Shown one piece after another: positions 1,564-51,833 of a stretch of DNA of 64,000 nucleotides. This DNA is from Candidatus Saccharicenans sp. (lineage in GTDB: Bacteria; Acidobacteriota; Aminicenantia; Aminicenantales; Saccharicenantaceae). Position numbers and translations under genes: made by a program. How positions within the stretch are numbered: the first letter of the stretch is position 1; every line of letters starts with the position of its first letter. Where the stretch lies: the NCBI GenBank assembly GCA_024653215.1, contig JANLFU010000004.1:155574-219573 (forward strand), written 5' to 3'. The notes beneath the pieces are model-generated. The model saw only the letters and a program-made list of their open reading frames with translations, ran no database searches and was not told where the DNA came from.

Positions 1564-1592
1564 ATAATACAGCCCCAGGTTAAGCCTGTCAA
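1564..1592 (-). promoter_or_regulatory. Sigma-70-type promoter for the 923-1552 gene
   Basis: Read on the minus strand, TTGACA (1592-1587) is followed by a 17-nt spacer and TATTAT (1569-1564). This matches the housekeeping consensus at 11 of 12 positions with ideal spacing. The start codon is at 1552, so the expected start site leaves a leader of only about 4-5 nt. Confidence 0.6.
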
Positions 1593-1712
1593 ACTGACCG
1601 TCAACAGGCTTCGGGTCATATTTCGGAACCTAGTTATAGGGGGAGCCCTGCTTATTCCTGTCGCCCCGGGCCTGACGGTAGCTTATAGGGCACGAATTGT
1701 GTTTCAGGATTT

Positions 1713-1733
1713 CGGGCAGGCCCGTGTTTTTTT
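1713..1733 (+). terminator. Orphan terminator-like hairpin
   Basis: CGGG CAGG CCCG (1713-1724) is followed by TG and seven T residues (1727-1733), the layout of an intrinsic terminator on the plus strand. The stem is only 4-5 bp. No plus-strand gene ends here: the nearest, 35-913, stops 800 bp upstream and has a minus-strand gene in between. It may end a short unannotated RNA in the 1553-1733 interval, or be fortuitous. Confidence 0.3.
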
Positions 1734-1846
1734 GAGCAAAGCAATAGGTATCAACACTACCTTAGGGAGAAGGGTTGAACGGGCATATGGGCAAATTATC
1801 GATATGAATGGAAAGAAAAATTCACCGGTCAGGAGAAATCGGGGGA

Positions 1847-4231
1847 TCAGTTCATTCCGGCGGCAGCCGTCCTGATGACAAGGCCAGAGGCCCCCTGCTC
1901 AAACCTGACCGCCCCGTCCCGGTCAATTCTCAAGACTTCAATTCCCGCTGCTTCCAGTCTTTCCAGGACCTCGAGGTCGGGAAAGCCGTAGACGTTGTTT
2001 CTGCCGGCCGTGATCACGGCCCAGCGCGGGGACACTGCTTCCAGGAAGGTGGGGCTGGCGGAGGAACGACTGCCATGATGGGGAACTTTGAGGACGGTGG
2101 CTTCTAATTTTCCTGGCCACAGGCGGACCAGGTAATCTTCGACCGGAGCAGTGATGTCGGCTGCCAAGAGAAACGATTGTTCTGCGCAGTCCAACTTCAG
2201 GATCACCGACAGGTCATTCCCGGGATGGAAAAGGGCCTCGGCCTGTTCATCGGGATAGAGCACCTCAACCCGGCAGCCGTCTATCACCTGGCTGAGACCC
2301 GCCCTCAGCATTTTTTTCCTGGTTTTCCGGGAAAGAACCCGGTTAATTTCTTCTGACAGGCGGTTCCCCTTTTCCTCCACGGACCAGAATTCCCCGACCC
2401 GAAAATTTCGGGCCAGGGCCGGCAGTCCACCGGCATGGTCCGGGTGAAAATGGCTGCAGACCAGGTAGTCAATCTTCTTATAACCGCGGTGCCAGAGGTA
2501 GGGTGAAACCAGGCTTTCGCCCGGGTCAAAGCTGCCCTGGACAAAACCCCCAGCATCGATGACCATCACCCGGCTGCCTGGAAACTCCACCACCAGGGAA
2601 TCTCCCTGCCCGACATCCATGAAGGTTACGGTTAGCCTCTCGTTGTGGGGTCGAAAAGGATAGATGATCATCACTAAGAAAAAAACAGACAGCCCGGCTG
2701 CCGTTAAGAGTTTCTGATAGCGGAAGCGGGGTTTTGCCAGGAGCAACAGCAGGCACAGGTAAAACCCGATGACCACCATCGTTGGGGGTGACGGGAGTCG
2801 GTAGGAAAGAGAGTTAAAGGGTTCGAGCCAGGCAGCCACCCAGGAAAAAAATCTTATCAGGTACTTAAGGACAAATGACAGGAGGTGGCCGGCTGCTGGC
2901 AGCATAAGGTTCACCGCCAGGTAGATGTAGCCGACAGCCATGATGAGTCCCATGAGCGGAGCCGCCGGCAGGTTAAGAATAAGGGAAGCGAAGGTCACCC
3001 GGTTAAAATTACTGATTATGACCGGCATGGTGCCGGCCACGGCGGCCAGAGACATGGCTGTCATCTCGGAAACCCGGAAAGGCAACTTCGGCAACACCTT
3101 GAAGATCGGTTTGAAGAACAGCACCAGGCTCAGGGTGGCCAGGAAGGTCAGCTGGAAGCCGACATCTTCCAGGCTGAACGGATTTATCACCAGGAGCACC
3201 AGTGCCGACAGGGCCAGGGTGTTGAGAAGGTTGGTGTCGGCCGAGATTAACTTGCCCAGCAGGAAAAGAGAAGTCATGATGACCGCCCGGAATACCGAGG
3301 GCTGACCCTCGACCAGGAAGGCATAAAAGATGAGCACGGCCAGCAGGATGAGCTGGATGGTCCTCTTCCTGGTGATGAACAGACCGAGGAAAGAATAAAA
3401 CAAGAGACTGACCACGGCCACGTGCGCCCCGGAAATGGCCAGCAGGTGATAGAGCCCGGTCTTCTGAAATTGCCGGTCGGTTTCCGGGTCGAGTCGTCCG
3501 TCGGCTCCCAGGAGCAGGGCTTCCAGCACCGCCCCCTCGGCCGCCAGGGTGAAGCGGTCCGGGCCGGGAAAGTCTTTTTCTATTCCCTTTTGCAGTTTTC
3601 TTCTCAGGCCGGAAAAAAAGCCGGCGGGGGTATGGTTTTTCTGGTTTATCTTCTTGATGAGCAGCGGGCTCTTGGCAAAGGCCCGGGCCTGGATTCGCTG
3701 GCTGCGCAGGTAACGCGGCATGAAATCAGGAAAAAAATTTCTGAAGGTATCTTCCGGACTCAGGGTGGCTGAGAATTCTACCCGGTCTCCGGCCAGAAGC
3801 TCGAGCGGCTCCTGGCTGGTTGAGGAGTGAGCCACGGTCAGCCGGAGTTGGCCTTTTATCCTTTTTTCCACACCGGCCAGCCGGACCTGTTCAACCCCGA
3901 TTATCAGAATATCGCGGTCGGTTCTTCGTTCGGGTGAGCGGAGAACCCGGCCCTTGAAATCAAGATAGCCTTCTACGCTGAGCTGCCTCAGCTCGTTATT
4001 CTGGTGCCGGCTGTATTCCAGGCTGCAGAGGCTGAACCCGGCCAGGAAAAAACCGGCCAGTATCAACCAGAAAGCAGCGCGTTCTTTCTTGAAGCCATAT
4101 CCGAACCAGCCGGCGGCGATGGTAATTCCTGTAAGCAGCGCCAGCTGCCAGGAGTAAACTGCCTTCAAGACAATGGAAAATAAAATGCCGGCGATGAAAC
4201 TGATAGCCGGTATCAGCAGGGGAGCGGGCAT
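1847..4231 (-). CDS. comEC: ComEC/Rec2 DNA-uptake channel protein
   Basis: A 794-residue polytopic inner-membrane protein that should form the channel carrying single-stranded DNA into the cytoplasm during transformation. The N-terminal part has several hydrophobic helices and an OB-like soluble segment. The middle is the competence domain with many membrane spans, including the family-type stretch HLLAISGAHVAVVS near residue 260. The C-terminal part is a metallo-beta-lactamase-like domain with HFHPDHAGG and HHGSRSS metal-binding motifs. Length matches the full three-domain form. The ATG lies 3 nt after the stop of the M20 amidohydrolase, so translational coupling is likely. No other competence gene is visible in the window. 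Confidence 0.95.
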   Translation of the reverse strand: MPAPLLIPAISFIAGILFSIVLKAVYSWQLALLTGITIAAGWFGYGFKKERAAFWLILAGFFLAGFSLCSLEYSRHQNNELRQLSVEGYLDFKGRVLRSPERRTDRDILIIGVEQVRLAGVEKRIKGQLRLTVAHSSTSQEPLELLAGDRVEFSATLSPEDTFRNFFPDFMPRYLRSQRIQARAFAKSPLLIKKINQKNHTPAGFFSGLRRKLQKGIEKDFPGPDRFTLAAEGAVLEALLLGADGRLDPETDRQFQKTGLYHLLAISGAHVAVVSLLFYSFLGLFITRKRTIQLILLAVLIFYAFLVEGQPSVFRAVIMTSLFLLGKLISADTNLLNTLALSALVLLVINPFSLEDVGFQLTFLATLSLVLFFKPIFKVLPKLPFRVSEMTAMSLAAVAGTMPVIISNFNRVTFASLILNLPAAPLMGLIMAVGYIYLAVNLMLPAAGHLLSFVLKYLIRFFSWVAAWLEPFNSLSYRLPSPPTMVVIGFYLCLLLLLAKPRFRYQKLLTAAGLSVFFLVMIIYPFRPHNERLTVTFMDVGQGDSLVVEFPGSRVMVIDAGGFVQGSFDPGESLVSPYLWHRGYKKIDYLVCSHFHPDHAGGLPALARNFRVGEFWSVEEKGNRLSEEINRVLSRKTRKKMLRAGLSQVIDGCRVEVLYPDEQAEALFHPGNDLSVILKLDCAEQSFLLAADITAPVEDYLVRLWPGKLEATVLKVPHHGSRSSASPTFLEAVSPRWAVITAGRNNVYGFPDLEVLERLEAAGIEVLRIDRDGAVRFEQGASGLVIRTAAAGMN

Positions 4232-4234
4232 TTA

Positions 4235-5581: not shown

Positions 5582-5632
5582 GAGCACCTGCCCCCTTATT
5601 GGTGATACAGTCAGGTTAAAAAAATTTATTTG

Positions 5633-5959
5633 TTATTTTTCGGTGTCCAGGTCTTCCGGGAACTCGGGTTCCTTTCTGACATATTCACCCTTTTTCTTTT
5701 CGATGAATTCCTTTATGGCTTCGATTCCCTCTTCGGCTTTTTCTTTGGCAATCTTAACACCTTTTTCCGCTTCCCGGGCCACCCTCTGGTAACCTTCGGC
5801 CGCCAGTTGCTGGCCTTTCTTGGCCTGTTCTTTAATCTTCTGCCTGGTTTCCTTACCGCTGGCCGGGGCAAACAGAATTCCCAGGATAAAGCCAGTGGCT
5901 GCGCCGGCCATGAAGGTCAGCAGATAGTCGACGAAAGAGGACCCTTTGTTATCTGACAT
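5633..5959 (-). CDS. YtxH-domain membrane protein
   Basis: A 108-residue small membrane protein. Residues 8-30 form a glycine-rich transmembrane helix (TFMAGAATGFILGILFAPASG), the hallmark of the YtxH family. A lysine/glutamate-rich amphipathic helix follows and ends in DTEK. The start is well supported by AAGGAG 7 nt before the ATG. It overlaps the upstream DUF948-like gene by 11 bp, so the two are probably made together. YtxH proteins are associated with stress and the envelope, but the biochemical role is unknown. Confidence 0.85.
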   Translation of the reverse strand: MSDNKGSSFVDYLLTFMAGAATGFILGILFAPASGKETRQKIKEQAKKGQQLAAEGYQRVAREAEKGVKIAKEKAEEGIEAIKEFIEKKKGEYVRKEPEFPEDLDTEK

Positions 5960-6320
5960 TTTTCTTCTCCTTTCTTTTTTTCATTAGCTGCCAACCAAAG
6001 CGCAGCAGGGGAAAGAGAACCGGCCAGAAGCGCGAGGCCGGCCTGACCAGCCTGGTGGTCATGAACATGGAAAGTTCCGACAGCCCGGACAGGGTCTTTC
6101 GGGTTGAGTCAATTATGACCCCGGCCTCATCCAGGCGACGGTCGATCTTGTCCTCGATTCTTTCCAGCTTATGCAAGACCAGCTGCAGGTCCTGGAATGA
6201 TTTTTCCGCTTCCCTGGCCGTCCGCCTGAGCTGGGCCAGGAACAGAACCAGGAATACCACCAGCACCGCTGCAGCCACAGTCAGGATCAGGAACAGAACC
6301 TGGTTGAAAGTCAGCAGCAT
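5949..6320 (-). CDS. DUF948-like membrane protein
   Basis: A 123-residue protein with one N-terminal transmembrane helix (about residues 8-30), a charged coiled-coil section (ARAEKSFQDL-like through IEDKIDRRL) and a basic C-terminus (KKRKEKKN). This layout, directly before a YtxH gene, is typical of DUF948 proteins. There is no Shine-Dalgarno sequence before the ATG. A TTGACA / TAATGT promoter ends only 9 nt upstream of the start, suggesting a leaderless or nearly leaderless message. Function is unknown; a membrane-scaffold role is only a guess. Confidence 0.75.
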   Translation of the reverse strand: MLLTFNQVLFLILTVAAAVLVVFLVLFLAQLRRTAREAEKSFQDLQLVLHKLERIEDKIDRRLDEAGVIIDSTRKTLSGLSELSMFMTTRLVRPASRFWPVLFPLLRFGWQLMKKRKEKKNVR

Positions 6321-6329
6321 GATATCTTT

Positions 6330-6359
6330 ACATTAAGGCAAAACGGACGCGGTTGTCAA
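6330..6359 (-). promoter_or_regulatory. Promoter of the DUF948/YtxH pair
   Basis: On the minus strand TTGACA (6359-6354), an 18-nt spacer and TAATGT (6335-6330). The -10 element lies 9 nt from the ATG at 6320, leaving a leader of about 2-3 nt. Confidence 0.5.
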
Positions 6360-6382
6360 TCTTAAAGAATTAAGGCCAGTGG

Positions 6383-9278: not shown

Positions 9279-9304
9279 CGAAGCGGTTGCCTTTTTCGCA
9301 GACT

Positions 9305-9347: not shown

Positions 9348-9382
9348 GACATAAGGGCACCCGGTCCCCGCCCCGCTTTAAG

Positions 9383-13628: not shown

Positions 13629-13893
13629 CCGGCAGGCTCTGGGCTTGCCTGGACAGGCGGGACTTGTAGCGGGAGCCGGTGTTCTTCTTGATGGTTCCCT
13701 TGGCTACTGCCCTGTCTATGGCCTTGAAAACTGACGGCAGGAGAGCCAGGGCGGCTTCCCGGTCTTCGGCCTCTATTTTTTCCCTGAGCTTCTTGATCAG
13801 GGTCTTCATCAGGGATTTATTTCTCTGGTTTACGGCCCGTCTCCGCAAGCTGCGACGGTGCTGTCTGATAGCCGATTTGTGTCTGAGCGCCAT
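13615..13893 (-). CDS. rpsT: Ribosomal protein S20
   Basis: A 92-residue primary 16S rRNA-binding protein of the small subunit. It is Lys/Arg-rich and all helical, with the S20 pattern: MALRHKSAIRQHRRSLRRR at the start, KSLMKTLIKKLR, then KGTIKKNTGSRYKSRLSRQA near the end. AAGGAG lies 6 nt upstream of the ATG, and a TTGACT/TATCAT promoter precedes it. It converges on holA with a 14-bp antisense overlap of the two 3' ends. Confidence 0.97.
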   Translation of the reverse strand: MALRHKSAIRQHRRSLRRRAVNQRNKSLMKTLIKKLREKIEAEDREAALALLPSVFKAIDRAVAKGTIKKNTGSRYKSRLSRQAQSLPVKAG

Positions 13894-18057: not shown

Positions 18058-18938
18058 GACAGCAAAGCCTCGACAAAAGATTCCGCAGAAAATTCCAGCA
18101 GGTCTTTCTCGCTTTCCCCGATGCCCATGAATTTCACCGGAAGGTGCAGCTCGTCGGTTACGGCCAGGACACTGCCTCCCCGGGCCGTTCCGTCGAGCTT
18201 GGTCAGAAAGATTCCGGTTATTCCGGAGAACCGATTGAACTCGCGGGCCTGAACGATGGCATTCTGGCCGATGGTCGAGTCCAGCACCAGCAGGATCTCC
18301 TGGGGAGCCCCGGCAATTTCGCGGCTGATTACCCTCTTTATTTTTTCCAGTTCGGCCATCAGGTTGGAGTAGGTATGAAGGCGCCCGGCCGTGTCCACCA
18401 GCAGCAGGTCATAATTTCTGGCCTTGAAAGATTGAATGGCGTCATAAACAACGGAAGCCGGGTCGGCTCCGCTCTGGCCCTGGACCACCGGCAGGTTGAG
18501 TTTTTTCCCCCAGAGCTGAAGCTGCTCCTGGGCAGCGGCCCGGAAGGTGTCGGCTGCCGCCAGCATCACCTTTTTCCCCTGGCTCTGGTACCGATAGGCC
18601 AGCTTGGCGGCCGAGGTGGTTTTCCCGCCACCGTTGACCCCGACCAGCATCCAGACTGCCGGCCAGGTCTCATTCACCGCCGCTGGCTGGCTGGAAAGCA
18701 GGTTTACCAGTTCCTGCTTGAGCAGGGCCTTGAGGTCGGCCGAGCCAGTCTTCCTGGCCCGGTCTCGAAGACCTGAGATAATGCGGTCAGTAGTGCTGAC
18801 CCCGACGTCGGCCAGGATCAGGAGTTCGTACAGCTCTTCCAGCAGTTCTTCCCGCGGCCGGCTGCTCTGAAACAGCTGTTCCATCCGGCTGAAGATTTCC
18901 CTGGTTTTGCTGAGCTTCTGCTTTAATTTATCGAACAC
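18054..18938 (-). CDS. ftsY: Signal recognition particle receptor FtsY
   Basis: A 294-residue GTPase that docks SRP-ribosome complexes at the inner membrane. It has the minimal NG form: an N domain starting FDKLKQKLSKTRE and a G domain with GVNGGGKTTSAAKLA (near residue 108), DTFRAAA, DTAGRL and TKLDGTARGG. The acidic A domain of some proteobacteria is absent. I chose the GTG at 18938. The open frame runs 34 codons further upstream, but a consensus promoter lies inside that extension and the family start matches here. No Shine-Dalgarno sequence is present, so the message may be leaderless. It leads the rib genes. Confidence 0.95.
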   Translation of the reverse strand: MFDKLKQKLSKTREIFSRMEQLFQSSRPREELLEELYELLILADVGVSTTDRIISGLRDRARKTGSADLKALLKQELVNLLSSQPAAVNETWPAVWMLVGVNGGGKTTSAAKLAYRYQSQGKKVMLAAADTFRAAAQEQLQLWGKKLNLPVVQGQSGADPASVVYDAIQSFKARNYDLLLVDTAGRLHTYSNLMAELEKIKRVISREIAGAPQEILLVLDSTIGQNAIVQAREFNRFSGITGIFLTKLDGTARGGSVLAVTDELHLPVKFMGIGESEKDLLEFSAESFVEALLS

Positions 18939-18947
18939 GGCTTTTGA

Positions 18948-18976
18948 ATTATATTTTTGGCTGCCGGCTATGTCAA
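18948..18976 (-). promoter_or_regulatory. Consensus promoter of ftsY-rib operon
   Basis: Minus strand: TTGACA (18976-18971), a 17-nt spacer and TATAAT (18953-18948), a perfect match to the housekeeping consensus. The -10 lies 9 nt before the GTG start at 18938, leaving a leader of about 2-3 nt. Confidence 0.7.
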
Positions 18977-19002
18977 ACAGCAGCCACCGGTCAGCTCGGC
19001 GG

Positions 19003-19031
19003 TTGTGGAAGCGGTTATCTTGTGTTAAATT
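19003..19031 (+). promoter_or_regulatory. recJ promoter
   Basis: TTGTGG (19003-19008), a 17-nt spacer and TAAATT (19026-19031). The -10 is 7 nt from the recJ ATG at 19039, so transcription should start at or next to the start codon. The -35 match is only moderate. Confidence 0.45.
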
Positions 19032-19038
19032 GAAAAAC

Positions 19039-20742
19039 ATGGAGGCCCGTTACCGATGGCAGATTGCCCCGCCTGACCCCGAGGCCTGGATTCTGGCCCA
19101 GGAACTCAACCTGCCCCACGAGATTGCCACCATCCTGGTCAACCGCGGCCTGCGCTCGGCCTCCGAGGCAGCTTTCTTCCTCTACGGTGGCCTGAATGAA
19201 CTCCACGATCCTTTCCTGATGAAGGGGATGAAGGAAGCCGTGGACCGGATTCGCCGGGCCATAGAGAAGAAAGAAAAGATAGTTATTTTCGGCGATTATG
19301 ATGTCGACGGCATTCTATCGGTAGTGATGCTGGTCAAGGCTCTAAACCTGCTGGGAGGAAGGGTTGAATATTTCATTCCCGAAAGGATGAAAGACGGCTA
19401 CGGTCTCAAGCTCCACCACATGGAAAATATTCTTCAGATGAAGACCGACCTGCTCATCAGCGTCGACTGCGGCATAAAAGCGGTTGATTTTGTTCGCGAG
19501 GCCCGAAGGCATGGGCTGGACGTAATAATAACCGACCATCATCATCCGGGCGAGGTGCTGCCCGAGGCTTTGGCCATCCTGAACCCGGTCCTGGAAAGCT
19601 CCGGTTATCCTGACCGGAACCTGGCCGGCGTGGGTGTGGTCTTCAAGCTGATCCAGGCCATCTTCTTGCGTCTCGGGATTAACCAGGACCTGAACCATTT
19701 CCTGAAGCTGGTCAGCATCGGCACCGTGGCCGACGTGGCCGAGCTCAAGGGTGAAAACCGCATCCTGGTCCGGGAGGGACTGAAGAAGCTAAAGGAAGCC
19801 AGGACTCCCGGCCTGAGAAGCCTGCTCGATGGTTCCGGCCTGAACAACCGGAAACTCAACGAGGTGGACCTGGGTTTCCGGCTGGGGCCGCGGATAAATG
19901 CCGCCGGCCGGCTGGGCATGACCGAAATTGCACTGCAGCTCTTTTTCTCCGAATCGCCCGAGGAATGCAACTCCCTGGTCAAGAAACTTAACGAGCTCAA
20001 CTCGGCCCGGCAGAGGATTGAAGAGAAAATTCTCAAGGAAGCGGTGGAAAAGATTGAGGCCCGCCAGCTGCATCAGAAGTACCGTTTGCTGGTCCTGGGC
20101 AGCGAAAACTGGCACCGCGGGGTCATCGGCATCGTGGCTTCCCGGGTAAAAGAAATTTTCTACCGCCCGGTGATCCTGTTCGCCTATGAAAACGGCCAGG
20201 CCTACGGTTCCGGCCGGAGCGTCCCGGAGCTCTCACTGATCGACCTGGTTAACGAGTGTGCTGACCTATGCCAGAATTTTGGTGGCCACAAGCAGGCCGT
20301 GGGCTGCACCCTAAGCCATGACCGGTTACCCGATTTCAAGGACAGGATAAACAGCCTTGCCCGGGCCAGGATTACAGACGAGCTATTGGAAAGAAAATTA
20401 CAGATTGACTGCCGGCTGAATTTTTCCTCCATCAGCCCGTCTTTCCTGGATTTTTATTCCAGGCTCCTGCCGTTTGGCGTGGGTAACCCGCGACCGGTGT
20501 TTGTGGCCGAAGAGGCCGATGTCCTCAGCGAACCCTCGGTTGTTCAGAACCGGCACCTGAAGTTCTGGGCCCGGCAGTCGGGCCGGGTATTTGAAGTCAT
20601 GGCCTGGGAAAAGGCCAGGTTCTGGCCGCATCTTCGCCGGGGAAGCTCTCTCGACCTGGCTTACTCCCTGCAATTTTCCGATTACCGCGGAAAAAGACAG
20701 ATCACGCTGGCCCTGGAAGACCTTAGGGCCCACCGGGCCTGA
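19039..20742 (+). CDS. recJ: Single-strand-specific 5'-3' exonuclease RecJ
   Basis: A DHH-family nuclease used in recombination, mismatch and base-excision repair; 567 residues. Visible motifs are FGDYDVDGI (motif I, near residue 85), SVDCGIKAV, DHHHPGE (DHH) and GHKQAVGC in the DHHA1 domain, followed by the OB domain that grips single-stranded DNA. I start at the ATG at 19039, where the protein begins MEARYRW; the open frame extends upstream only through the divergent promoter region. It lacks a Shine-Dalgarno sequence. The stop shares a base with the next ATG. Confidence 0.96.
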   Translation: MEARYRWQIAPPDPEAWILAQELNLPHEIATILVNRGLRSASEAAFFLYGGLNELHDPFLMKGMKEAVDRIRRAIEKKEKIVIFGDYDVDGILSVVMLVKALNLLGGRVEYFIPERMKDGYGLKLHHMENILQMKTDLLISVDCGIKAVDFVREARRHGLDVIITDHHHPGEVLPEALAILNPVLESSGYPDRNLAGVGVVFKLIQAIFLRLGINQDLNHFLKLVSIGTVADVAELKGENRILVREGLKKLKEARTPGLRSLLDGSGLNNRKLNEVDLGFRLGPRINAAGRLGMTEIALQLFFSESPEECNSLVKKLNELNSARQRIEEKILKEAVEKIEARQLHQKYRLLVLGSENWHRGVIGIVASRVKEIFYRPVILFAYENGQAYGSGRSVPELSLIDLVNECADLCQNFGGHKQAVGCTLSHDRLPDFKDRINSLARARITDELLERKLQIDCRLNFSSISPSFLDFYSRLLPFGVGNPRPVFVAEEADVLSEPSVVQNRHLKFWARQSGRVFEVMAWEKARFWPHLRRGSSLDLAYSLQFSDYRGKRQITLALEDLRAHRA

Positions 20743-22553: not shown

Positions 22554-23278
22554 GATTCCTGAAAGCCGTCAATCTGAGCAAAAGGTATGGTCAGCGCCGG
22601 GTCGTCGATAACCTTAGCCTTGAAGTAAGCACCGGGGAAGCCGTCGGGCTTCTGGGCCCCAACGGGGCCGGCAAAACCACCACTTTTTCCATAATCATCG
22701 GTCTGGTCGAAGCGGATGGTGGCCAGGTCTGGCTGGACGGGGAGGAGTTGACTTCTCTTCCCGCCTATCTGAGGGCCAGGAAAGGGCTTGGATTCCTTCC
22801 CCAGGAACCGTCAGTTTTCCGCGGGCTCAGCGTCGAGGAAAACCTGCAGCTGGTACTACAGAGCTGCCCGGGAACTGCCACCCCCGGAAACATTAAAGAA
22901 ACAACCGCCACCCTGCTTGAGGATTTCGGGCTGGCTTCCCTGGCCCGGAGCCGGGCCGACCGCCTGTCTGGTGGTGAGCGCCGCAAGCTGGAAATCGCCC
23001 GGGCCATGGCCCGGCGGCCGGTCTTTTTGTTGCTGGATGAACCGTTCAGTGAGCTCGACCCCATGGCCGTGGCCGACCTTCAGGGAATTATCCGTAAACT
23101 GAAAGACAGGGGAATAGGGGTCCTGTTGACTGACCACCGGCTCCGGGAGGCTCTGGGCGTCCTGGATAGAATTTACATTATGAATGGTGGTAAAATTATT
23201 GCTGAAGGAAGGCCGGACGAGGTCCTGGAGAAAAAAGAGGTGCGAGAGATATACCTCGGCCCCGACTTCCGTCTATAA
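22550..23278 (+). CDS. lptB: LPS-export ABC ATPase LptB
   Basis: A 242-residue cytoplasmic ATPase that powers extraction of lipopolysaccharide by LptFG. Motifs: Walker A GPNGAGKTT (near residue 37), signature LSGGERRKLEIA (near 140), Walker B LLLDEPF and the switch His in TDHRLRE. The LGFLPQEPSVFRGLSVEENL stretch is typical of LptB. It lies between the LptC/LptA-like gene and rpoN, matching the proteobacterial lptA-lptB-rpoN order. lptF and lptG are not in this window. Confidence 0.95.
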   Translation: MRFLKAVNLSKRYGQRRVVDNLSLEVSTGEAVGLLGPNGAGKTTTFSIIIGLVEADGGQVWLDGEELTSLPAYLRARKGLGFLPQEPSVFRGLSVEENLQLVLQSCPGTATPGNIKETTATLLEDFGLASLARSRADRLSGGERRKLEIARAMARRPVFLLLDEPFSELDPMAVADLQGIIRKLKDRGIGVLLTDHRLREALGVLDRIYIMNGGKIIAEGRPDEVLEKKEVREIYLGPDFRL

Positions 23279-23289
23279 TTTGTGCGGCC

Positions 23290-24741
23290 ATGATGAAGCA
23301 GAAACTCGACCAGAAACAGGTGCAGAAGCTGGTGATGGCCCCTGCCCTGCAACAGGCCATTCGTCTGCTCCAGCTGACCAACCTGGAATTGCAGGAGGTT
23401 ATCAATCAGGAGCTGGAGGAAAACCCTCTGCTGGAAACCGAAGAAGAGGTGCCGCAGGAAATATTGGCTTCCAGTCCGGCCGCTGAAGAAGTAAAAGGTG
23501 AGGAGGAACTGGAGCCGGCCAGCGGGGCCCCGGATGAATTTGACGAAATAATCTTTGCCGCCGGTTTCCAGGATTATTTTGACGAAGAGATTCCATATTC
23601 CGGGCAGGGAGAACAGGACCGGGTGCCGTTTGAAAACATGGTTTCCCGGAGCCCCTCCCTGTGGGACCACCTGAGCTGGCAGGCTGGCCTGACTTTTTTT
23701 GAAGCCGACGAGCTGGAGATAGCCGAGTTCATCATCGGCAACCTGAATGACGATGGCTACCTGACCATCAGCCCGGAAGAGATTGCCGACCGTCTGCAGA
23801 AGCCGCTGGAAAAGGTGGAAGCAGTCCGGCAAAAAATCAAGATGTTTGACCCGCCGGGCTGCGGCAGCCTGGTCCTGAGCGAAGCCCTGCTGGCCCAGAT
23901 GGATTCCCTCAACCTGCAGGACGAGGTGGCCAGGAAGATTATCAGCGACTACCTTCCTTACCTCCAGAAAGCCGACCACCAGGAACTGGCCCGGCTGCTC
24001 AACCTGAGCCTGCCCGAGTTGAAACTTCACCTGGACCTGATCAAGAACCTGGACCCGGCCCCCGGGCATAAATACAGCGAGGACCGCGACCTCTACGTGG
24101 TGCCCGATATCTTCGTGGTCAAGGAAGACGGGGAGTGGAAAGTCTACCTGAACGAGGAGGGCCTGCCCAGGCTCCGGCTCAACCATTATTACCGGCATCT
24201 TATCGAGGCCGGCCTCAAGGATGACCGCGAGACCACCCGGTTTCTAAAGGATAAGATGAAGAGGGCCCTGTGGTTCATCCGCAGCCTGGACCAGAGAAAC
24301 CGGACTATTTACCGGGTGGCCAGGTACATAGTCGACCGCCAGAAGGATTTCCTGGAGCAGGGCCTGGACCACATCAAGCCGATGACCCTGCTGGAGGTGG
24401 CCCGGGAGCTCGGGCTGCACGAGTCAACCATCGGGAGGGTGGTGGCCAACAAGTACATGATGACCCCGCTGGGTCTGTACCCCCTGAAATTTTTCTTCCA
24501 CAAGTCGCTCAGCGGGACCTACGGAGAGGAAGTATCCTCGCTCCGGATCAAGGAGAGAATCAGGAAGCTCATCGAGAACGAGGACCGCAACAGCCCCTTG
24601 AGCGACGATGAAATTGTTGATATATTATCCAGAGAGAATATCCAGATTGCCCGGAGGACCGTGGCCAAGTACCGGGGTCAGCTTGACATCCCGCCTTCCC
24701 ATATAAGAAAAAAGAAATTTATGATGGAGGAAGTAACATGA
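23290..24741 (+). CDS. rpoN: RNA polymerase sigma-54 factor
   Basis: A 483-residue sigma factor that directs transcription from -24/-12 promoters and needs enhancer-binding ATPases. The Gln/Leu-rich region I (residues 5-50) ends ELEENPLLE, an acidic region II follows, then the core-binding domain. The helix-turn-helix (MTLLEVARELGLHESTIGR) precedes the RpoN box ARRTVAKYR near residue 460. Two ATGs are adjacent at 23290 and 23293. It is followed by hpf and regulatory PTS genes, as in proteobacteria. I saw no convincing -24/-12 promoter in the window. Confidence 0.97.
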   Translation: MMKQKLDQKQVQKLVMAPALQQAIRLLQLTNLELQEVINQELEENPLLETEEEVPQEILASSPAAEEVKGEEELEPASGAPDEFDEIIFAAGFQDYFDEEIPYSGQGEQDRVPFENMVSRSPSLWDHLSWQAGLTFFEADELEIAEFIIGNLNDDGYLTISPEEIADRLQKPLEKVEAVRQKIKMFDPPGCGSLVLSEALLAQMDSLNLQDEVARKIISDYLPYLQKADHQELARLLNLSLPELKLHLDLIKNLDPAPGHKYSEDRDLYVVPDIFVVKEDGEWKVYLNEEGLPRLRLNHYYRHLIEAGLKDDRETTRFLKDKMKRALWFIRSLDQRNRTIYRVARYIVDRQKDFLEQGLDHIKPMTLLEVARELGLHESTIGRVVANKYMMTPLGLYPLKFFFHKSLSGTYGEEVSSLRIKERIRKLIENEDRNSPLSDDEIVDILSRENIQIARRTVAKYRGQLDIPPSHIRKKKFMMEEVT

Positions 24742-34720: not shown

Positions 34721-35378
34721 AAGCCCTTTCTATTATGTTTAAGAATTCAAGACTGAAATCGTCCATCATGGATATCATTTCCTTGATGCGGCCCAGGAAA
34801 TAATTATAGGCGATGACCGCCGGGATGGCTGCGAACAGACCCACGGCCGTGGCGATCAGGGCCTCGGCGATGCCGGGAGCCACCGTTACCAGGCTGGCCG
34901 AGCGGACCACCCCAATTTTGTGGAAAGAATCCATGATTCCCCAGACGGTGCCGAGAAGGCCGATGAAGGGGGTAACACTGCCGCAGGTGGCCAGGAAGCT
35001 CATCATTTTTTCCAGACGGTTGATTTCGGCGTTGGAGGCCCTGAGCAGGGAGCGGTTGATGCTTTCCAGCTTTTCTCCATTTATGGACCCCTGAGGCTGC
35101 GGGTTGGACCTGGTCAGGTGTACCAGCTCCTTGAAGCCGGCCTGGAACAGGCTGGCCAGGGGGCTGTTCTTGTACTTGCGGGCCGCTTCGTTGACTTCAT
35201 TCAGGGATTTGCTGCGCCGGAAGACTTCCAGGAAATTCTGTGAAGCGGCCTCGGCCGCCCTTATACTCCGCCTTTTGTAGATGATTATGGCCCACGAAAA
35301 AACAGAGAAAATGACCAGAATCAAGAGGATAAGTTTGACGACTATGGTAGCTTGCGATATCAGGCTGAAAACATTCAT
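34710..35378 (-). CDS. tolQ: TolQ/ExbB-family motor subunit
   Basis: A 222-residue inner-membrane protein with three hydrophobic helices that forms the proton-driven motor with TolR. The conserved second/third-helix region TPFIGLLGTVWGIMDSF and the VAPGIAEALIATAVGL stretch are clear. No Shine-Dalgarno sequence precedes the ATG, and the -10 element is only 9 nt upstream. It leads the tolQRAB run. Confidence 0.95.
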   Translation of the reverse strand: MNVFSLISQATIVVKLILLILVIFSVFSWAIIIYKRRSIRAAEAASQNFLEVFRRSKSLNEVNEAARKYKNSPLASLFQAGFKELVHLTRSNPQPQGSINGEKLESINRSLLRASNAEINRLEKMMSFLATCGSVTPFIGLLGTVWGIMDSFHKIGVVRSASLVTVAPGIAEALIATAVGLFAAIPAVIAYNYFLGRIKEMISMMDDFSLEFLNIIERAYGG

Positions 35379-35387
35379 AACTTTTTC

Positions 35388-35416
35388 AAGTTAACATACG
35401 GAACGGGGTCTGTCAA
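35388..35416 (-). promoter_or_regulatory. tolQRAB promoter
   Basis: Minus strand: TTGACA (35416-35411), a 17-nt spacer and TAACTT (35393-35388). The start codon begins at 35378, so the leader would be about 2-3 nt. Confidence 0.5.
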
Positions 35417-39979: not shown

Positions 39980-40010
39980 TTCCGGCCCTCGGAAATCCAC
40001 CCAGAAGTGC

Positions 40011-40016
40011 TAAAAT
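40011..40016 (+). promoter_or_regulatory. uvrA -10 element
   Basis: TAAAAT lies 6 nt before the uvrA ATG (40023), so transcription should begin at the start codon itself. No good -35 is visible (best is a 3-of-6 match near 39989), a pattern described for leaderless genes with TANNNT elements. Confidence 0.45.
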
Positions 40017-40022
40017 ATAGCC

Positions 40023-42548
40023 ATGCTCCAGGAAATCAGGGTGCGCAAGGCGGCCCAGCACAATCTCAAGAAAATTGATGTTGAGCTGCCCAGGAACCGT
40101 CTGGTCATAGTCACCGGGCCCAGCGGCTCGGGCAAATCTTCCCTGGCCTTTGACACCCTGTTTGCCGAGGGACAGCGGAGATACATAGAGTGCCTTTCGG
40201 CTTACGCCCGGCAATTTATCGAGCAGCTGGAGAAGCCTGAAGTCGAGTCGATCGAAGGCCTGTCCCCGGCCATTTCAGTTGACCAGAAGACCATCTCTTT
40301 CAACCCGCGGTCGACGGTCGGTACCATAACTGAAATTTACGACCTGCTGCGCCTCCTGTATGCCCGGCTGGGAACAATGTACTGTCCCGACTGCCGGGTG
40401 CCGGTTGTGGCCAGCAGCCGTGAGCAGATCCTGGAGATGATCGGTTCCAGGTTTTCCGGGCGAAATATCATGATTCTGGCCCCTGTGGTCCGTGGGCGGA
40501 AAGGCGAGTACCAGCAGCTGCTGGAAAAATTCAGGAAAAAGGGTTTCCTGAGAGCCCGGATTGACGGCTGGATGCATGACCTGGAAGAAAAAATCCGCCT
40601 GGACAGGAACAGAAAACATAGCATCGAAATCCTGGTGGACGAGTTAAAGCTGGAACCAGGAAAGGAGCGTCGCTTGCAGGAGGCCGTGGAGAAAAGCCTG
40701 GAGATGGCCGAAGGTGGGGTGCTGGTGCTGGAGGCCTCCGGCCAGGAATCTTATTTCTCCAGGAAGCTGGCCTGTCCCTCCTGTGGTCGCAGTTTCCAGC
40801 CGCTGGAACCCAGGAATTTTTCTTTCAACAGTCCTTATGGTGCCTGCGGCCGGTGCCACGGACTGGGCTACCTTACCACTCTTAACGAGTGGGGCGAGGT
40901 GGAGCTGACCTCAGACCTCTGCCCCGACTGCCGGGGCCAGAGACTGAAAAAAGAAAGTCTCTGGGTCAGAATCGACGGTCTGAACATCCACGAGCTGGCC
41001 TCGCTCGACGTGGATCGCCTGCTTGAAAAAATAGACAAACTGAGTTTTTCCGGCCAGGTTCAGACGGTGGCCGAAAAAATATTGAAGGAAGTGAAAGACC
41101 GGTTACTGGTGATGAGGGAACTCGGCCTGTCCTATCTTGACCTCAACCGGACCGGCTCCTCGCTGTCGGGCGGCGAGGCCCAGAGAATCAGGCTGGCTGC
41201 CCAGGTCGGTTCCAGGTTGCGGGGTATTCTCTACGTGCTGGATGAGCCGACCATCGGCCTTCACCAGCGGGATAACGGCCAGCTGATCAGGCTGCTCCGC
41301 CAGCTCCGTGATGCCGGGAACTCCATAGTGGTGGTTGAGCATGATGAGCAGACCATTCGTTCAGCCGATTACCTGATTGACCTGGGGCCAGGGGCCGGTG
41401 AAAACGGCGGGCGGGTGGTGGCCTGCGGTCCGCTCCAGGAGGTTCTGAACTCGAGAGAGTCTCTGACCGCCCAGTACCTGCGGGGAGAAAAAGCGGTGCC
41501 GGTGCCGGCGGTCCGCCGGACTCCCTCCGGCTGGCTTACAGTCCGGGGCGCGGCCGAGCATAATCTTAAGGACATAGATGTCAGTTTTCCCCTGGGGGTG
41601 ATGACGGCCGTAACCGGGGTTTCGGGTTCGGGCAAGAGCAGCCTGGTTTATGACGTTCTTTACCGGGCCCTGTTGAAGAAGTTTTACCGGGCCAAAGTTC
41701 AGCCGGGAAAGCACCGGGCACTTGAGGGGCTGGAGAATATAGACAAGGTAGTTTCAGTTGACCAGAAGCCGATAGGCCGGACGCCCAGGTCCAACCCGGC
41801 TACCTATACCGGAATTTTCGGGCACCTGCGGCAGCTTTTTTCCCTGACCCCGGAGGCCCGCCGGAAGGGATACCGCCCCGGACGTTTCAGTTTCAACGTT
41901 CACGGCGGACGCTGCGAGGACTGCCAGGGAGCCGGGGTGAAAAAGGTGGAAATGCATTTCCTGCCCGACGTCTATGTCACCTGCGACCGCTGCCACGGCC
42001 GGAGGTACAACAAGGAAACGCTGGCCGTAACCTACCACGGGAAAAACATCGCCGATTTTCTGGACATGACAGTGGACGAGGCCTTTGACCTGCTCCGGGC
42101 CCACCCCTCGCTCCGCCGCAAGCTGGAGCTGCTGAAGCAGGTGGGACTGGGTTATCTCAGGCTGGGCCAGCCGGCACCACAGCTATCGGGTGGAGAGGCC
42201 CAGAGAATCAAGCTGACCCGGGAGCTCAGCCGCCGCGATACCGGAAAGACGCTCTATCTTCTGGATGAACCGACCACCGGGCTCCATTTTGACGATGTCA
42301 GCAAGCTGCTCAAAGTCCTGGAAAGGCTGGTGGAAATGGGCAACACGGTGATCATAATCGAGCATAACCTTGAAGTTATCAAGTATTGCGATTACATTAT
42401 TGACCTGGGCCCGGAGGGCGGGCAGGCTGGCGGGGAAGTGGTGGCGGCCGGGCGGCCGGAAGAGGTGGCCCTGGTGGAAAAATCCCACACCGGTCGTTAT
42501 CTGCGCCAGGTGCTCTTGTCCGGGGTGCACGGCGGGTTGAGAGGATAG
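40023..42548 (+). CDS. uvrA: Excinuclease ABC subunit A, shortened form
   Basis: The damage-scanning ATPase of nucleotide excision repair, here 841 residues. Present are Walker A I GPSGSGKSS (about 32-40), the UvrB-binding region, zinc finger I (CPSC...CGRC, about 250-278), a CPDC pair near 300, signature I LSGGEAQRI near 381, Walker A II SGSGKSS, zinc finger II (CEDC...CDRC) and signature II. Classical UvrA has about 940 residues. Nearly the whole difference lies between zinc finger I and signature I, where only about 20 residues join GLG to CPDC. It lacks a Shine-Dalgarno sequence. Confidence 0.95.
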   Translation: MLQEIRVRKAAQHNLKKIDVELPRNRLVIVTGPSGSGKSSLAFDTLFAEGQRRYIECLSAYARQFIEQLEKPEVESIEGLSPAISVDQKTISFNPRSTVGTITEIYDLLRLLYARLGTMYCPDCRVPVVASSREQILEMIGSRFSGRNIMILAPVVRGRKGEYQQLLEKFRKKGFLRARIDGWMHDLEEKIRLDRNRKHSIEILVDELKLEPGKERRLQEAVEKSLEMAEGGVLVLEASGQESYFSRKLACPSCGRSFQPLEPRNFSFNSPYGACGRCHGLGYLTTLNEWGEVELTSDLCPDCRGQRLKKESLWVRIDGLNIHELASLDVDRLLEKIDKLSFSGQVQTVAEKILKEVKDRLLVMRELGLSYLDLNRTGSSLSGGEAQRIRLAAQVGSRLRGILYVLDEPTIGLHQRDNGQLIRLLRQLRDAGNSIVVVEHDEQTIRSADYLIDLGPGAGENGGRVVACGPLQEVLNSRESLTAQYLRGEKAVPVPAVRRTPSGWLTVRGAAEHNLKDIDVSFPLGVMTAVTGVSGSGKSSLVYDVLYRALLKKFYRAKVQPGKHRALEGLENIDKVVSVDQKPIGRTPRSNPATYTGIFGHLRQLFSLTPEARRKGYRPGRFSFNVHGGRCEDCQGAGVKKVEMHFLPDVYVTCDRCHGRRYNKETLAVTYHGKNIADFLDMTVDEAFDLLRAHPSLRRKLELLKQVGLGYLRLGQPAPQLSGGEAQRIKLTRELSRRDTGKTLYLLDEPTTGLHFDDVSKLLKVLERLVEMGNTVIIIEHNLEVIKYCDYIIDLGPEGGQAGGEVVAAGRPEEVALVEKSHTGRYLRQVLLSGVHGGLRG

Positions 42549-42554
42549 CGCGGG

Positions 42555-44229: not shown

Positions 44230-44246
44230 TTGCCTGCTATCCTGCC

Positions 44247-44894: not shown

Positions 44895-44960
44895 TTTAAT
44901 CCGCCTTCCCTTTTCTTCACCCTTTTAGTCGCCGGAATCAGGCAAAAGTGGAAAAAATTT

Positions 44961-45458: not shown

Positions 45459-45591
45459 GTCTGAACCCGGTTGCTTCCTTTAACTACAAATTCATATGTT
45501 CCTGATGAAAATATCATATCTTCCACCCATTTTTCAATTTTTTCTTTGGCCTGGCGACTAATTTTTTGCCCCTTGAGGAAGCGGAGGGCCT

Positions 45592-46709: not shown

Positions 46710-46730
46710 TCAGCCTGTTACCCCTGGCCT

Positions 46731-49082
46731 TCAAGTCTTATCTTCCGGTACCTTGGCTTTCTGCCTGTCCTTAAAATAGGACTTGGGGTCAACCAGGATT
46801 TCCCGTGGTTTGGCTCCTTCGGAAGGACCGATAATTCCTTCCAGCTCCATCTGGTCTATTATCCTGGAGGCCCGGGCATAGCCTAGTTTCAGTTTCCTCT
46901 GCAGGTAGGAGGCCGAGGCCTGCCCGGTGGCCAGGACCAGCTCCACCGCCCGGTCGAACAGTTCGTCCTTCTCTCCCAGGTCGCCCTCGAGAGTCAGGTC
47001 TCCGGTCCGCTTCAGGATCTGCATGATCCGGTCGTCGAATTCGGGCTGGCCCTGGTCTTTTACGAACTTAACCAGGCGCTGAACCTCGGGGATGGAGACA
47101 TAGGCACAGTGCAGCCTGATGATTCTTGGATAGTTGGGTGGCATGAATAGCATGTCGCCCAGGCCCAGGAGTTTTTCGGCGCCAACGGTATCGATGATGA
47201 CCCGGGAGTCAATCTTGGACGGGACCTTGAAGGCAATCCGGCTGTTAAAGTTGTTCTTGATGGTGCCGGTTATGACGTCAATCGATGGCCTCTGGGTGGC
47301 CATGACCAGGTGAATACCCACGGCCCGGGCCAGCTGGGCCAGCCGGCCGATGCAGTATTCCACGTCCTGGGGACTGGTCATCATCAGTTCAGCCAGCTCG
47401 TCGATGATGATGACAATGTAAGGAAGCGGCTTGAGCCTGGCCTTTTCTTCTTCGCTCAATTTGCCCTTTTTCTGTTCGAGCAGGGCCCGGACCTGCTGGT
47501 TGTACTGCTCGATGTTCCTGACCTTCATCTGCCCGAGCTGACGCAGCCGCTCTTCCATCTTCTTCACGGCATCCATCAGGATGATGCCGGCCTTCTTGGA
47601 GTCGTTGACCACGGGCGCCAGCAGGTGGGGGATGCCGTCGTAGAGGGTGAATTCCAGGCGCTTGGGGTCGATCAGGATCAGCTTGACTTCATCCGGAGTG
47701 GCCTTGTACAGGATGCTGGCGATCAGGGCATTGAGGGCCACGCTCTTCCCGGTGCCGGTGGCGCCAGCAATCAGCAGGTGGGGCATGATGGCCAGGTCGG
47801 TGATGTAAACATCGCCGTGGACGGTCTTGCCCAGGGCAAAGGTCAGCTTGGAGGCAGAATTCTGGAATTTCTCCGACTGGATGATATCTCTTAGTTTTAT
47901 TATTTCTCGCTTGTTATTTGGGATTTCAATGCCCAGCGAGGATTTTCCCGGGATGCGCTGGATGCGCACTGCTTCAGCCTCCAGGGCCAGCGACAGCTCC
48001 TCGCTCAGCCCGGCCACCTGGCTGACCTTTATGCCGGCGTCCGGGAAATATTCGTAGGTGGTGATGACCGGACCCGGGTGATATTCCCGGACCTCTCCGG
48101 ATACCTTGAATTCCAGCAGCTTCTCTTCGATCCGGCGCTTTTTTTCAAACAGCTCATCGCGGTCAATTTTTTCCGTGGGTTTGCCCGGGTCAAGCAGGCT
48201 GAACGGCGGGAACCGGTAGTCGCCTGATTTCCTCAGGTCCGGAAGCAGCATTTTTTCTCCAACCGGCTCTTCTTTTTTCCTGGCAGCCGGTGGTTTTTCC
48301 GCCGGCTTCGGAGGTTTTTTCTCCTCGACCGGGAGAGTTTCCCTGACTGGTTTTTCGGTAAGGCTCCTGGCTTCGGCCGCTGTGGCGCGGGAGGCGGCCA
48401 GCTTTTCTCTGGCCTCTTTCTCAGCCAGCTTCTTCTTGAGCTTTTCTTGCTTTCGCTCCTTCTGGTACTGGCTGATCCTGATAATGACCTGGCCGGTGGT
48501 ATTCTTGAAAAGCCTGGCGAAAAAGTCGACGGTCCGGGCCAGGCTCCAGTGAGTGGTGAAAATCAGCAACAGGGCCAGAAGGCAGAGCAGGAGGATGAAA
48601 GACCCGGTGTGGTTAAGATAGCGGACAAAAAAATTGCCTATCAGTTCCCCAAGCAACCCCCCGGCCGGGAATTCTTTTCCCCTCCAGGGGGCCCTTTCCA
48701 GGACCAGATAAAGAAGGGGAGAAAGCACCAGGAGATAGAGCAGTCCGTTCAGGCTGCGCTTGAAGAGCCGGCCTGACTGCCCGGGAAACAGGCTCCTGAT
48801 TCCCAGGTAGCCCAGGGCCAGCGGCAGAAAGAGGGCCATCAGGCCGAAGACCTGCAACAGGCTTTCGGCAAAACCGGCCCCGAGCTTTCCCCCGAAGTTC
48901 TGGATGCGGTGCCCGGGGGGAGAAGTGCTGGCCCAGGTCGGGTCGGCCGGGTTATAGGTAAAAATACTGAGAAAGGAAAAGGCGGCCAGGAAGATGAGAA
49001 TTACCGAAATAACTTCGGCCAGGATCTTGTTCTTCCGGCCTTCTTTTTTCTCTGATTTTTTTTCCTTCTTAGCTCTGGCCAT
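46731..49082 (-). CDS. ftsK: DNA translocase FtsK/SpoIIIE
   Basis: A 783-residue septal motor that pumps chromosomal DNA through the closing septum. Four N-terminal transmembrane helices (about residues 25-175) are followed by a charged Lys/Glu/Pro linker, then the RecA-like motor with Walker A GATGTGKSV near residue 443 and Walker B IIIDELAELM. The C-terminal winged-helix gamma domain (about 715-775; ATGQASASYLQRKLKLGYARA) would read KOPS-type polarity sequences. An extended -10 promoter lies just upstream. Confidence 0.97.
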   Translation of the reverse strand: MARAKKEKKSEKKEGRKNKILAEVISVILIFLAAFSFLSIFTYNPADPTWASTSPPGHRIQNFGGKLGAGFAESLLQVFGLMALFLPLALGYLGIRSLFPGQSGRLFKRSLNGLLYLLVLSPLLYLVLERAPWRGKEFPAGGLLGELIGNFFVRYLNHTGSFILLLCLLALLLIFTTHWSLARTVDFFARLFKNTTGQVIIRISQYQKERKQEKLKKKLAEKEAREKLAASRATAAEARSLTEKPVRETLPVEEKKPPKPAEKPPAARKKEEPVGEKMLLPDLRKSGDYRFPPFSLLDPGKPTEKIDRDELFEKKRRIEEKLLEFKVSGEVREYHPGPVITTYEYFPDAGIKVSQVAGLSEELSLALEAEAVRIQRIPGKSSLGIEIPNNKREIIKLRDIIQSEKFQNSASKLTFALGKTVHGDVYITDLAIMPHLLIAGATGTGKSVALNALIASILYKATPDEVKLILIDPKRLEFTLYDGIPHLLAPVVNDSKKAGIILMDAVKKMEERLRQLGQMKVRNIEQYNQQVRALLEQKKGKLSEEEKARLKPLPYIVIIIDELAELMMTSPQDVEYCIGRLAQLARAVGIHLVMATQRPSIDVITGTIKNNFNSRIAFKVPSKIDSRVIIDTVGAEKLLGLGDMLFMPPNYPRIIRLHCAYVSIPEVQRLVKFVKDQGQPEFDDRIMQILKRTGDLTLEGDLGEKDELFDRAVELVLATGQASASYLQRKLKLGYARASRIIDQMELEGIIGPSEGAKPREILVDPKSYFKDRQKAKVPEDKT

Positions 49083-49090
49083 TTTTCCTG

Positions 49091-49099
49091 ATTATAGCA
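49091..49099 (-). promoter_or_regulatory. Extended -10 promoter of ftsK
   Basis: Minus strand TGCTATAAT (49099-49091), an extended -10 (TGnTATAAT) with no good -35. It ends 8 nt before the ATG at 49082. AGGA is present between them, but the predicted leader of 1-3 nt would exclude it. Confidence 0.5.
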
Positions 49100-49103
49100 C
49101 AGG

Positions 49104-49129
49104 GACCCGACGGTTTTCATCGTCGGGTC
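49104..49129. terminator. Hairpin between rsmA and ftsK
   Basis: GACCCGACG (49104-49112) and CGTCGGGTC (49121-49129) form a perfect 9-bp stem with an 8-nt loop, overlapping the rsmA stop codon. No U tract follows on the minus strand, so termination would be weak or factor-assisted. It separates rsmA from the ftsK promoter. Confidence 0.5.
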
Positions 49130-49950: not shown

Positions 49951-49997
49951 CTTTAATTTCCCTTCAGGTAGCTTTATTTTTTAAGAGCGGCCCGGCC

Positions 49998-51239: not shown

Positions 51240-51330
51240 TTCGATGTCTTCTCCTTGTCATCCGGAAAGAACACAACAGAGTGTTTATATGCTAAAAGCC
51301 GTCCGGCTGTAAAGTCCGGAGTATCAGGAG

Positions 51331-51346
51331 CCTGGCCATGGCCAGG
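51331..51346. promoter_or_regulatory. 16-bp perfect palindrome upstream of receiver gene
   Basis: CCTGGCCATGGCCAGG is exactly self-complementary and directly abuts the -35 hexamer at 51347. That position suits an activator or repressor dimer. Confidence 0.5.
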
Positions 51347-51376
51347 TTGACAAGGCCTTTAGCCTTAAACTAAAAT
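51347..51376 (+). promoter_or_regulatory. Promoter of receiver-accD-folC run
   Basis: TTGACA (51347-51352), an 18-nt spacer and TAAAAT (51371-51376). The ATG at 51390 is 13 nt beyond the -10, giving a leader of about 6-7 nt with no Shine-Dalgarno sequence. Confidence 0.55.
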
Positions 51377-51389
51377 TGGCTTGATTGAA

Positions 51390-51833
51390 ATGACCGAGAA
51401 GAAAATCCTGATCGTCGACTACGAGCCGTCTTCGCTGGAAAACCTGTCCCGGATACTCAAAAACATAAAGGTCCAGGTCATCCAGGCCACCGATGGAGCC
51501 CAGGCCTATGACCTGTTCAAGGAAGAAAAGCCAGACCTGGTCATCCTGGAAGCCATCCTGCCGAAACTCCATGGCTTTGACCTGACCAGGAAAATTGTCC
51601 AGGACTCCCAGGGAACGGTGCCGGTCATCATACTGACCGGACTTTACAAGGGGCCTCAGTACAAGCATGAAGCCGTGGCTAACCTGGGAGCGGCTGAATA
51701 TCTGGAAAAGCCTTTTAACCCCGACGTTCTGCTGGAAATAGTCAGCCGGCTGCTTAGTGCCGAAGAAGAAATCGAAGACGTTTTGCCTGACCCCGATTCG
51801 GTTTTATCGTTGATTGAGCCCAAGGGCAAGTAG
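51390..51833 (+). CDS. Stand-alone receiver domain with Glu at the phosphosite
   Basis: A 147-residue response-regulator receiver fold with a short acidic tail and no output domain. Compared with CheY-type domains, one acidic-pocket residue is kept (Asp10 in IVDYEP) while the next is Tyr. The phospho-acceptor position in DLVILEAILP is Glu54 instead of Asp. Thr83 (ILTG) and Lys107 (EKPF) are conserved. Glu may mimic the phosphorylated state, so this could be a constitutively active or non-phosphorylated regulator. It precedes accD by 56 bp; no histidine kinase is nearby. An in-frame TTG at 51381 is a less likely start. Confidence 0.88.
   Translation: MTEKKILIVDYEPSSLENLSRILKNIKVQVIQATDGAQAYDLFKEEKPDLVILEAILPKLHGFDLTRKIVQDSQGTVPVIILTGLYKGPQYKHEAVANLGAAEYLEKPFNPDVLLEIVSRLLSAEEEIEDVLPDPDSVLSLIEPKGK

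Follow-up and report, generated by a model that had tools for sequence, protein, structure and literature searches.

Genes with a TANNNT element about 12 base pairs (bp) upstream of the start codon and no Shine-Dalgarno (SD) sequence are described as TA-led or leaderless genes by Zheng et al. (2011; PMC3160421), whose per-genome statistics give a leaderless share of 13.3% for Acidobacteria (9.7-19.4%; three of three genomes). In Deinococcus-Thermus a -10 box directly before the open reading frame likewise acts as promoter, at 6-7 nucleotides (nt), beside a class of genes led by a ribosome-binding site (PMC12340547), and in Mycobacterium leaderless transcriptomes have been mapped experimentally (PMC3898074, PMC4633059). 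Here, a similar architecture is described from sequence only, in a 64,000-nt stretch of the genome of a Candidatus Saccharicenans sp. (the window; positions 155574-219573 of its contig, in an assembly of 2.60 Mb in 36 contigs that is 92% complete), where -10 elements lie 6-9 nt before the start codons of ftsY, tolQ, ftsK, recJ, a uvrA paralogue and a DUF948-like gene. Our reading, which we hold with considerable confidence, is that a minority of the likely first genes of transcription units carry a sigma70-type promoter abutting the start codon and would be translated without an SD sequence from leaders of 0-5 nt.

A first-pass annotation of the window, made from its letters, had proposed this placement and had guessed correctly that the lineage is Acidobacteriota-like: the LeuRS is 99% identical to that of Candidatus Saccharicenans subterraneus (NCBI class Candidatus Aminicenantia), and the class Aminicenantia is placed in Acidobacteriota by GTDB. 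It had also suggested that such genes may be little described in the lineage. This stands for the class as far as the literature was searched, since no paper was found on leaderless genes in Aminicenantes/Aminicenantota, nor on Saccharicenans promoters, and the main text of Zheng et al. 2011 has no word beginning with aminicenan-; it does not stand for the phylum, which that study already reports to have leaderless genes. The leaderless mode itself is known; new, within the literature searched, are the lineage and the order-deep conservation at ftsY, a spacing followed here gene by gene across an order.

Promoter elements next to start codons

All six -10 elements are found where the first-pass annotation had placed them, and its two looser cases, at the 1552 gene and at the 51390 gene, are also seen at the distances that it gave (Table 1; the gap is the number of nt from the end of the -10 hexamer to the start codon). 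As it had reported, five of the six close cases have no SD sequence, and AGGAG-type leaders are seen at the contrast genes pal (OmpA family), ytxH and accD; a fourth, rpsT, may be the 92-residue frame at 13893 (-) with AGGAG. A feature absent from that annotation is a perfect TTGACA at 17-18 bp from the -10 element of ftsY, tolQ, the DUF948-like gene, the 1552 gene and the 51390 gene; in this respect the genes are unlike those of Deinococcus.

The genome-wide tests cover 852,897 bases, one third of this genome (an earlier profile was run on 0.46 Mb), with gene calls from a home-made codon-usage caller that is blind to upstream signals. Transcription units were inferred from gene distance only: a gene is counted as unit-leading when its upstream neighbour is on the opposite strand or more than 30 nt away, and as operon-internal at 30 nt or less. 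The SD sequence counts as present if AGGA, GGAG or GAGG occurs within 20 nt, a strong promoter is one with at least 11 on our own score, and the null for each test is 100 dinucleotide shuffles, which are also held SD-free in the tests on SD-less genes. The comparison genomes are G007, of another genus of the family (68.5% guanine plus cytosine), and G086, of another family of the order (40.8%); the controls are 200 kb of Escherichia coli and 250 kb of plasmid 2 of Deinococcus deserti.

The first-pass annotation had proposed a genome-wide TAnnnT profile, split by SD, as the check on its claim. When this is done, a peak near the start codon is found in the 213 unit-leading genes without SD and none in the 202 with SD. 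At 5-11 nt, the SD-less unit-leading genes have TANNNT in 56 of 213 cases, against 28.8 expected (shuffle maximum 39), and a 5/6 match to TATAAT in 24 of 213, against 6.4 (maximum 11); a -35/-10 pair is present in 10 of 213, against 0.4 (maximum 2). The operon-internal genes have no excess, neither in this genome (8 of 109 against 7.5) nor in G007 (0 against 0.2) and G086 (5 against 6.9). There is also none in E. coli (8 of 70 against 8.7), and the known signal of D. deserti is recovered (17 of 73 against 3.5). In G007 the count is 11 of 93 against 3.5 (maximum 8), with 6 against 0.6 for the strict motif, and in G086 the -35/-10 pair exceeds the null maximum (6 against 0.2, maximum 2). Once a -35 element is required, or genes with and without SD are treated separately, the near -10 elements are real and beyond chance, and the near-promoter class is confined to the likely first genes of transcription units.

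The SD sequence also varies with the distance of the promoter. Of the 193 strong promoters in this genome 31 lie at 4-11 nt, and an SD sequence accompanies 3 of these 31; farther out it accompanies 4 of the 9 that lie at 12-15 nt and 66 of the 105 that lie at 16-51 nt. The corresponding counts at 4-11 and 16-51 nt are 1 of 8 and 37 of 42 in G007, and 1 of 10 and 15 of 30 in G086 (pooled over the three genomes, p 5e-13), a step that is partly mechanical, because a near -10 element takes up the space of the SD sequence. Loss of the anti-SD or of bS21 was considered and rejected: two congeners have an intact anti-SD GGATCACCTCCTTT in their 16S, and bS21 is present; the assembly itself gave no 16S match. 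A conserved GCC before the start codon occurs in some cases and is not specific to the near-promoter class.

Conservation of the spacing among relatives

The strongest conservation is seen at ftsY. Family loci were fetched for 30 of the 33 genomes with a match, the own genome among them, and in all 30 the gap is exactly 9 to GTG or ATG, without SD and with a purine at the seventh nt after the hexamer; the family loci were scanned for gaps 4-14 only, with starts at most 15 nt from the aligned start, and the printed ftsY sequences agree with gap 9 without this limit. In other families of the order, eight genomes of which seven are readable, a start codon stands at gap 9 in six and at gap 8 in one, all without SD, although a second start codon 3 nt away makes the spacing ambiguous in four of the seven and once gives 6 nt. 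Taken to the first usable start, the promoter lies at 6-9 nt in all seven. Within the class, the gap is 6 in the class-mate G065, and the near promoter is missing in both readable class-mates of the family f2, a third being unreadable. Outside the class, none of 28 phylum loci has a promoter scoring at least 11 at 3-13 nt. This count omits 18 genomes whose match came without a locus, of which 15 lie outside the class and 3 are class-mates that were fetched separately.

At the DUF948-like gene, gap 9 without SD is found in all eight readable relatives of the ten sampled, and at recJ gap 7 is found in six of six congeners, the other genera being unreadable. For ftsK, 23 of 29 family loci were assessed and 19 of these have TANNNT at gap 6-8; the AGGA of its spacer is poorly conserved: among 12 genus loci read by eye, three have CAGGAAAA (own included), six have CAGAAAAA and three have other sequences. 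For tolQ, 29 of 30 family loci were assessed; the gap is 9 in 17, all of them of the own genus, and the other 12 have 11-14 nt, six of them as TANNNT, and the spacing is not kept in other genera. Of the 30 family loci of the uvrA paralogue 27 were assessed: 16 have gap 6, 11 have gap 8-9, and none has an SD sequence; these figures come from the scan of gaps 4-14, and in an unlimited scan other sites are preferred in the own genome and in 3 of 10 relatives. At the 51390 gene, one of the looser cases, the distance is 9-16 nt in eight relatives. At the start of rpoN, whose near -10 element is not in the first-pass annotation, the gap is 8-11 in six of ten relatives and differs in the rest.

Across six congeners, identical spacing is seen in 22 of 24 comparisons for near promoters and in 24 of 46 for far ones (p 0.001), counting only pairs in which each side has a strong promoter as well as an exact start codon; the species are related, and their loci are not independent. 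Weak scores removed recJ and the uvrA paralogue from the count, and the start rule removed two relatives of the 1552 gene; if these two relatives are included, the near figure becomes 22 of 26 (p 0.01). Single genes, ftsY above all, can keep a near-leaderless architecture across families. On the evidence of sequence, this kind of expression is extended to an order represented here by metagenome-assembled records only.

The 1552 gene (923-1592, -) seems to drift to an SD-led leader. Five of its ten relatives are readable, with 11, 10 and 15 nt without SD and 18 and 19 nt with SD, and this may be a natural transition from a short leader to an SD-led one as the spacing grows.

Leader length and competing explanations

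In the proposed mechanism, a housekeeping sigma70-type promoter with its -10 element about 6-11 nt before the start, often with TTGACA at 17-18 bp, would start transcription about 7 nt after the hexamer, giving a leader of 0 nt at gap 6 and of about 3-5 nt at gaps 9-11. From established knowledge of leaderless mRNA, 70S ribosomes, or initiation factor 2 (IF2) with initiator tRNA, would then recognise a start codon close to the 5' end with no need of SD pairing, and the genes with SD would be initiated in the ordinary SD-led way on longer leaders. Leaderless and SD-led genes reportedly occur side by side in Mycobacterium, as is proposed here. The rule that the leader equals the gap minus 6 is taken mainly from general sigma70 promoter geometry. 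The bases at far promoters are in keeping with a start near the seventh nt: in G007 the sixth nt is C in 54% and the seventh a purine in 58%, and in the own genome purines make up 43% at the sixth and 62% at the seventh. The predicted start of ftsY transcription is the G three bases before GTG, and ftsY, tolQ and the DUF948-like gene would each have a 3-nt leader. The conserved spacings thus provide testable +1 positions without RNA.

The claim of a leaderless type of placement is supported by the spacing, the SD split and the cross-species conservation, but "near-leaderless" appears to fit better than strictly leaderless, since gaps of 8-11 predict leaders of 2-5 nt. The commonest gaps among 28 listed genes of this genome are 6 (nine genes) and 9 (seven genes). 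This differs from the Deinococcus boxes at 6-7 nt (PMC12340547), gaps of 8-9 being at least as common here: the ratio of gaps 6-7 to 8-9 is 28:37 pooled over the own genome, G007 and G086, against 12:2 in D. deserti (p 0.006), with background matches on both sides. A dominance of gap 6-7 of the Deinococcus type is therefore not seen in these three genomes, in which the two ranges are about equal. It is conceivable, although we regard it as unlikely, that Aminicenantales have a fixed short-leader mode, with transcription starting exactly 3 nt before the start codon (gap 9), a leader selected as in the order-wide ftsY, and a ribosome that reads it differently from leaderless and SD-led mRNAs. 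Such a mode is made less likely by the weakness of the purine signal at genes other than ftsY and by the ambiguity of some starts at the level of the order.

Several observations weigh against the near-leaderless reading, beside the ambiguous ftsY starts, the unequal tolQ spacings and the other sites preferred at the uvrA paralogue. When all genes are profiled together, regardless of SD, TANNNT shows no peak close to the start codon, and the count at 5-11 nt in all unit-leading genes is 63 of 415 against 52.2 (shuffle maximum 70), which is not significant; the excess is only 11, compared with about 27 among SD-less genes, because the SD-bearing genes have fewer. Absence of a peak is what the first-pass annotation had named as evidence against its claim, and the unsplit profile alone would have spoken in this sense; the split by SD resolved it. 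In G086, plain TANNNT has no excess (22 against 17.4, maximum 26) and the strict motif only matches the null maximum (11 against 4.6, maximum 11). A consensus -35 is missing in recJ, ftsK and the uvrA paralogue, in place of which a weak -35, an extended -10 and a GTGC before the -10 are found, respectively. Spacing is also kept by some genes with longer leaders, such as the 35550 gene, with 22 nt in five of six congeners. At near promoters, the purine frequency of 85% at the seventh nt counts the gap-6 genes, whose seventh nt is the start codon; at gaps 7-11 it is 14 of 18 in the own genome, 5 of 8 in G086 and 1 of 4 in G007, and is weak outside ftsY. The idea that a purine at this position marks +1 in general was dropped.

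Promoters further upstream could instead give rise to the mRNAs, which would then have long SD-less leaders, the AT-rich element being a signal for ribosomal protein S1 or an unstructured region. SD-less genes without a near promoter are indeed common, as 124 of the 415 unit-leading genes have neither an SD sequence nor a promoter scoring at least 11. The conserved blocks at ftsY and tolQ are, however, the -35 and -10 hexamers, 17 bp apart and with a variable spacer, which is the footprint of an RNA polymerase, and an excess inside operons is not observed. We regard long leaders as very improbable.

Slightly less probable again is that the promoters are real and that translation begins at an in-frame codon further downstream, preceded by a leader and an SD sequence of its own, the genes being ordinary. 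Start prediction without transcripts is uncertain, and the caller misplaced the starts of ftsY, recJ and the 51390 gene; start codons of near-leaderless genes are easily misplaced in this way. The two adjacent start codons of four of the seven order-level ftsY genes also leave room for it. On the other hand, codons 2-16 of the proposed frames, averaged over ftsY, tolQ, ftsK and the uvrA paralogue, vary by 0.10, 0.055 and 0.34 at the three codon positions, the coding-like pattern expected if the frame is read from the proposed starts, and the open frame of ftsY has about 295 codons, its length from GTG, in three congeners.

Chance, with AT-rich upstream DNA yielding TAnnnT near starts and the best cases being picked, is the least probable: plain TANNNT is similarly dense at other distances when SD is ignored and the all-gene count lies inside the shuffle range, but the null tests with SD held absent, the correctly spaced TTGACA of three of the six genes and the spacings kept across species (at ftsY, DUF948, recJ and ftsK, and among congeners also at tolQ and the uvrA paralogue) speak against it for the window genes, while single unconserved genes among the 28 listed may still owe their elements to it.

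Features of the window and genes of the near-promoter class

Table 1. Near promoters and the start codons that they precede, in window positions
Feature	Coordinates (strand)	-35 element	Spacer (bp)	-10 element	Between -10 and start	Start codon	Gap (nt)
ftsY promoter	18936..18976 (-)	TTGACA 18971-18976	17	TATAAT 18948-18953	TCAAAAGCC	GTG 18936-18938	9
tolQ promoter	35376..35416 (-)	TTGACA 35411-35416	17	TAACTT 35388-35393	GAAAAAGTT	ATG 35376-35378	9
DUF948-like gene promoter	6318..6359 (-)	TTGACA 6354-6359	18	TAATGT 6330-6335	AAAGATATC	ATG 6318-6320	9
ftsK promoter	49080..49120 (-)	weak, ATGAAA 49115-49120 (-)	18	extended, TGC+TATAAT (hexamer 49091-49096)	CAGGAAAA	ATG 49080-49082	8
recJ promoter	19003..19041 (+)	weak, TTGTGG 19003-19008	17	TAAATT 19026-19031	GAAAAAC	ATG 19039-19041	7
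uvrA-paralogue promoter	40007..40025 (+)	no consensus		GTGC, TAAAAT 40011-40016	ATAGCC	ATG 40023-40025	6
1552 gene (borderline)	1550..1592 (-)	TTGACA 1587-1592	17	TATTAT 1564-1569		ATG 1550-1552	11
51390 response-regulator gene (borderline)	51347..51392 (+)	TTGACA 51347-51352	18	TAAAAT 51371-51376		ATG 51390-51392	13
rpoN (sigma-54) start, within a same-strand gene run	23274..23292 (+)	no consensus		TATAAT 23274-23279		ATG 23290	10

The gene names of the first-pass annotation agree with Pfam for FtsK, TolQ/ExbB, RecJ and the SRP54-type GTPase (FtsY), and the DUF948 match falls under the curated cut-off (29.6 vs 37.2 bits). Its "uvrA" belongs to the UvrA family but is an 841-residue paralogue (40023-42548, +) that has no Pfam UvrA DNA-binding match and occurs in genomes of the family; the longer UvrA is located elsewhere, at C31:50501-53203, and a near -10 element is present at both UvrA genes. 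The start of ftsY (18936-19040, -) is probably GTG 18938, and a longest-frame reading would take the in-frame upstream ATG 19040. A promoter-like pair at 22467-22495 (+), inside the upstream gene, is 54-55 nt from the 22550 start in all ten relatives that were read; because the pair falls within a coding sequence, its conservation may be that of the coding sequence.

In this genome, a strong promoter lies 4-11 nt before the start codon of 28 SD-less genes, of which 24 are beyond the window. Pfam was run on 23 of these 24, and 22 matched a family. They are mostly housekeeping genes, for quinolinate and nicotinate phosphoribosyltransferase, GMP synthase, EPSP synthase, MurB, GatC, YchF, a Glu/Gln-type tRNA synthetase, UvrA, Mfd and others, and no single pathway is dominant in the list. 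A nucleotide-excision-repair set was considered and dropped: near -10 elements are present at mfd and at the two UvrA genes but not at the own uvrB and uvrC, and in the comparison the uvrB start lies mostly outside the loci of the relatives. A plasmid search with FtsK gave nothing useful. Among the near-promoter candidates is YchF (L102:6726-7799, -), with TTGACA, gap 6 and a -10 element, TTTACT, that is not TANNNT; in E. coli, YchF is reported to restrain the translation of leaderless mRNA (PMC8138138).

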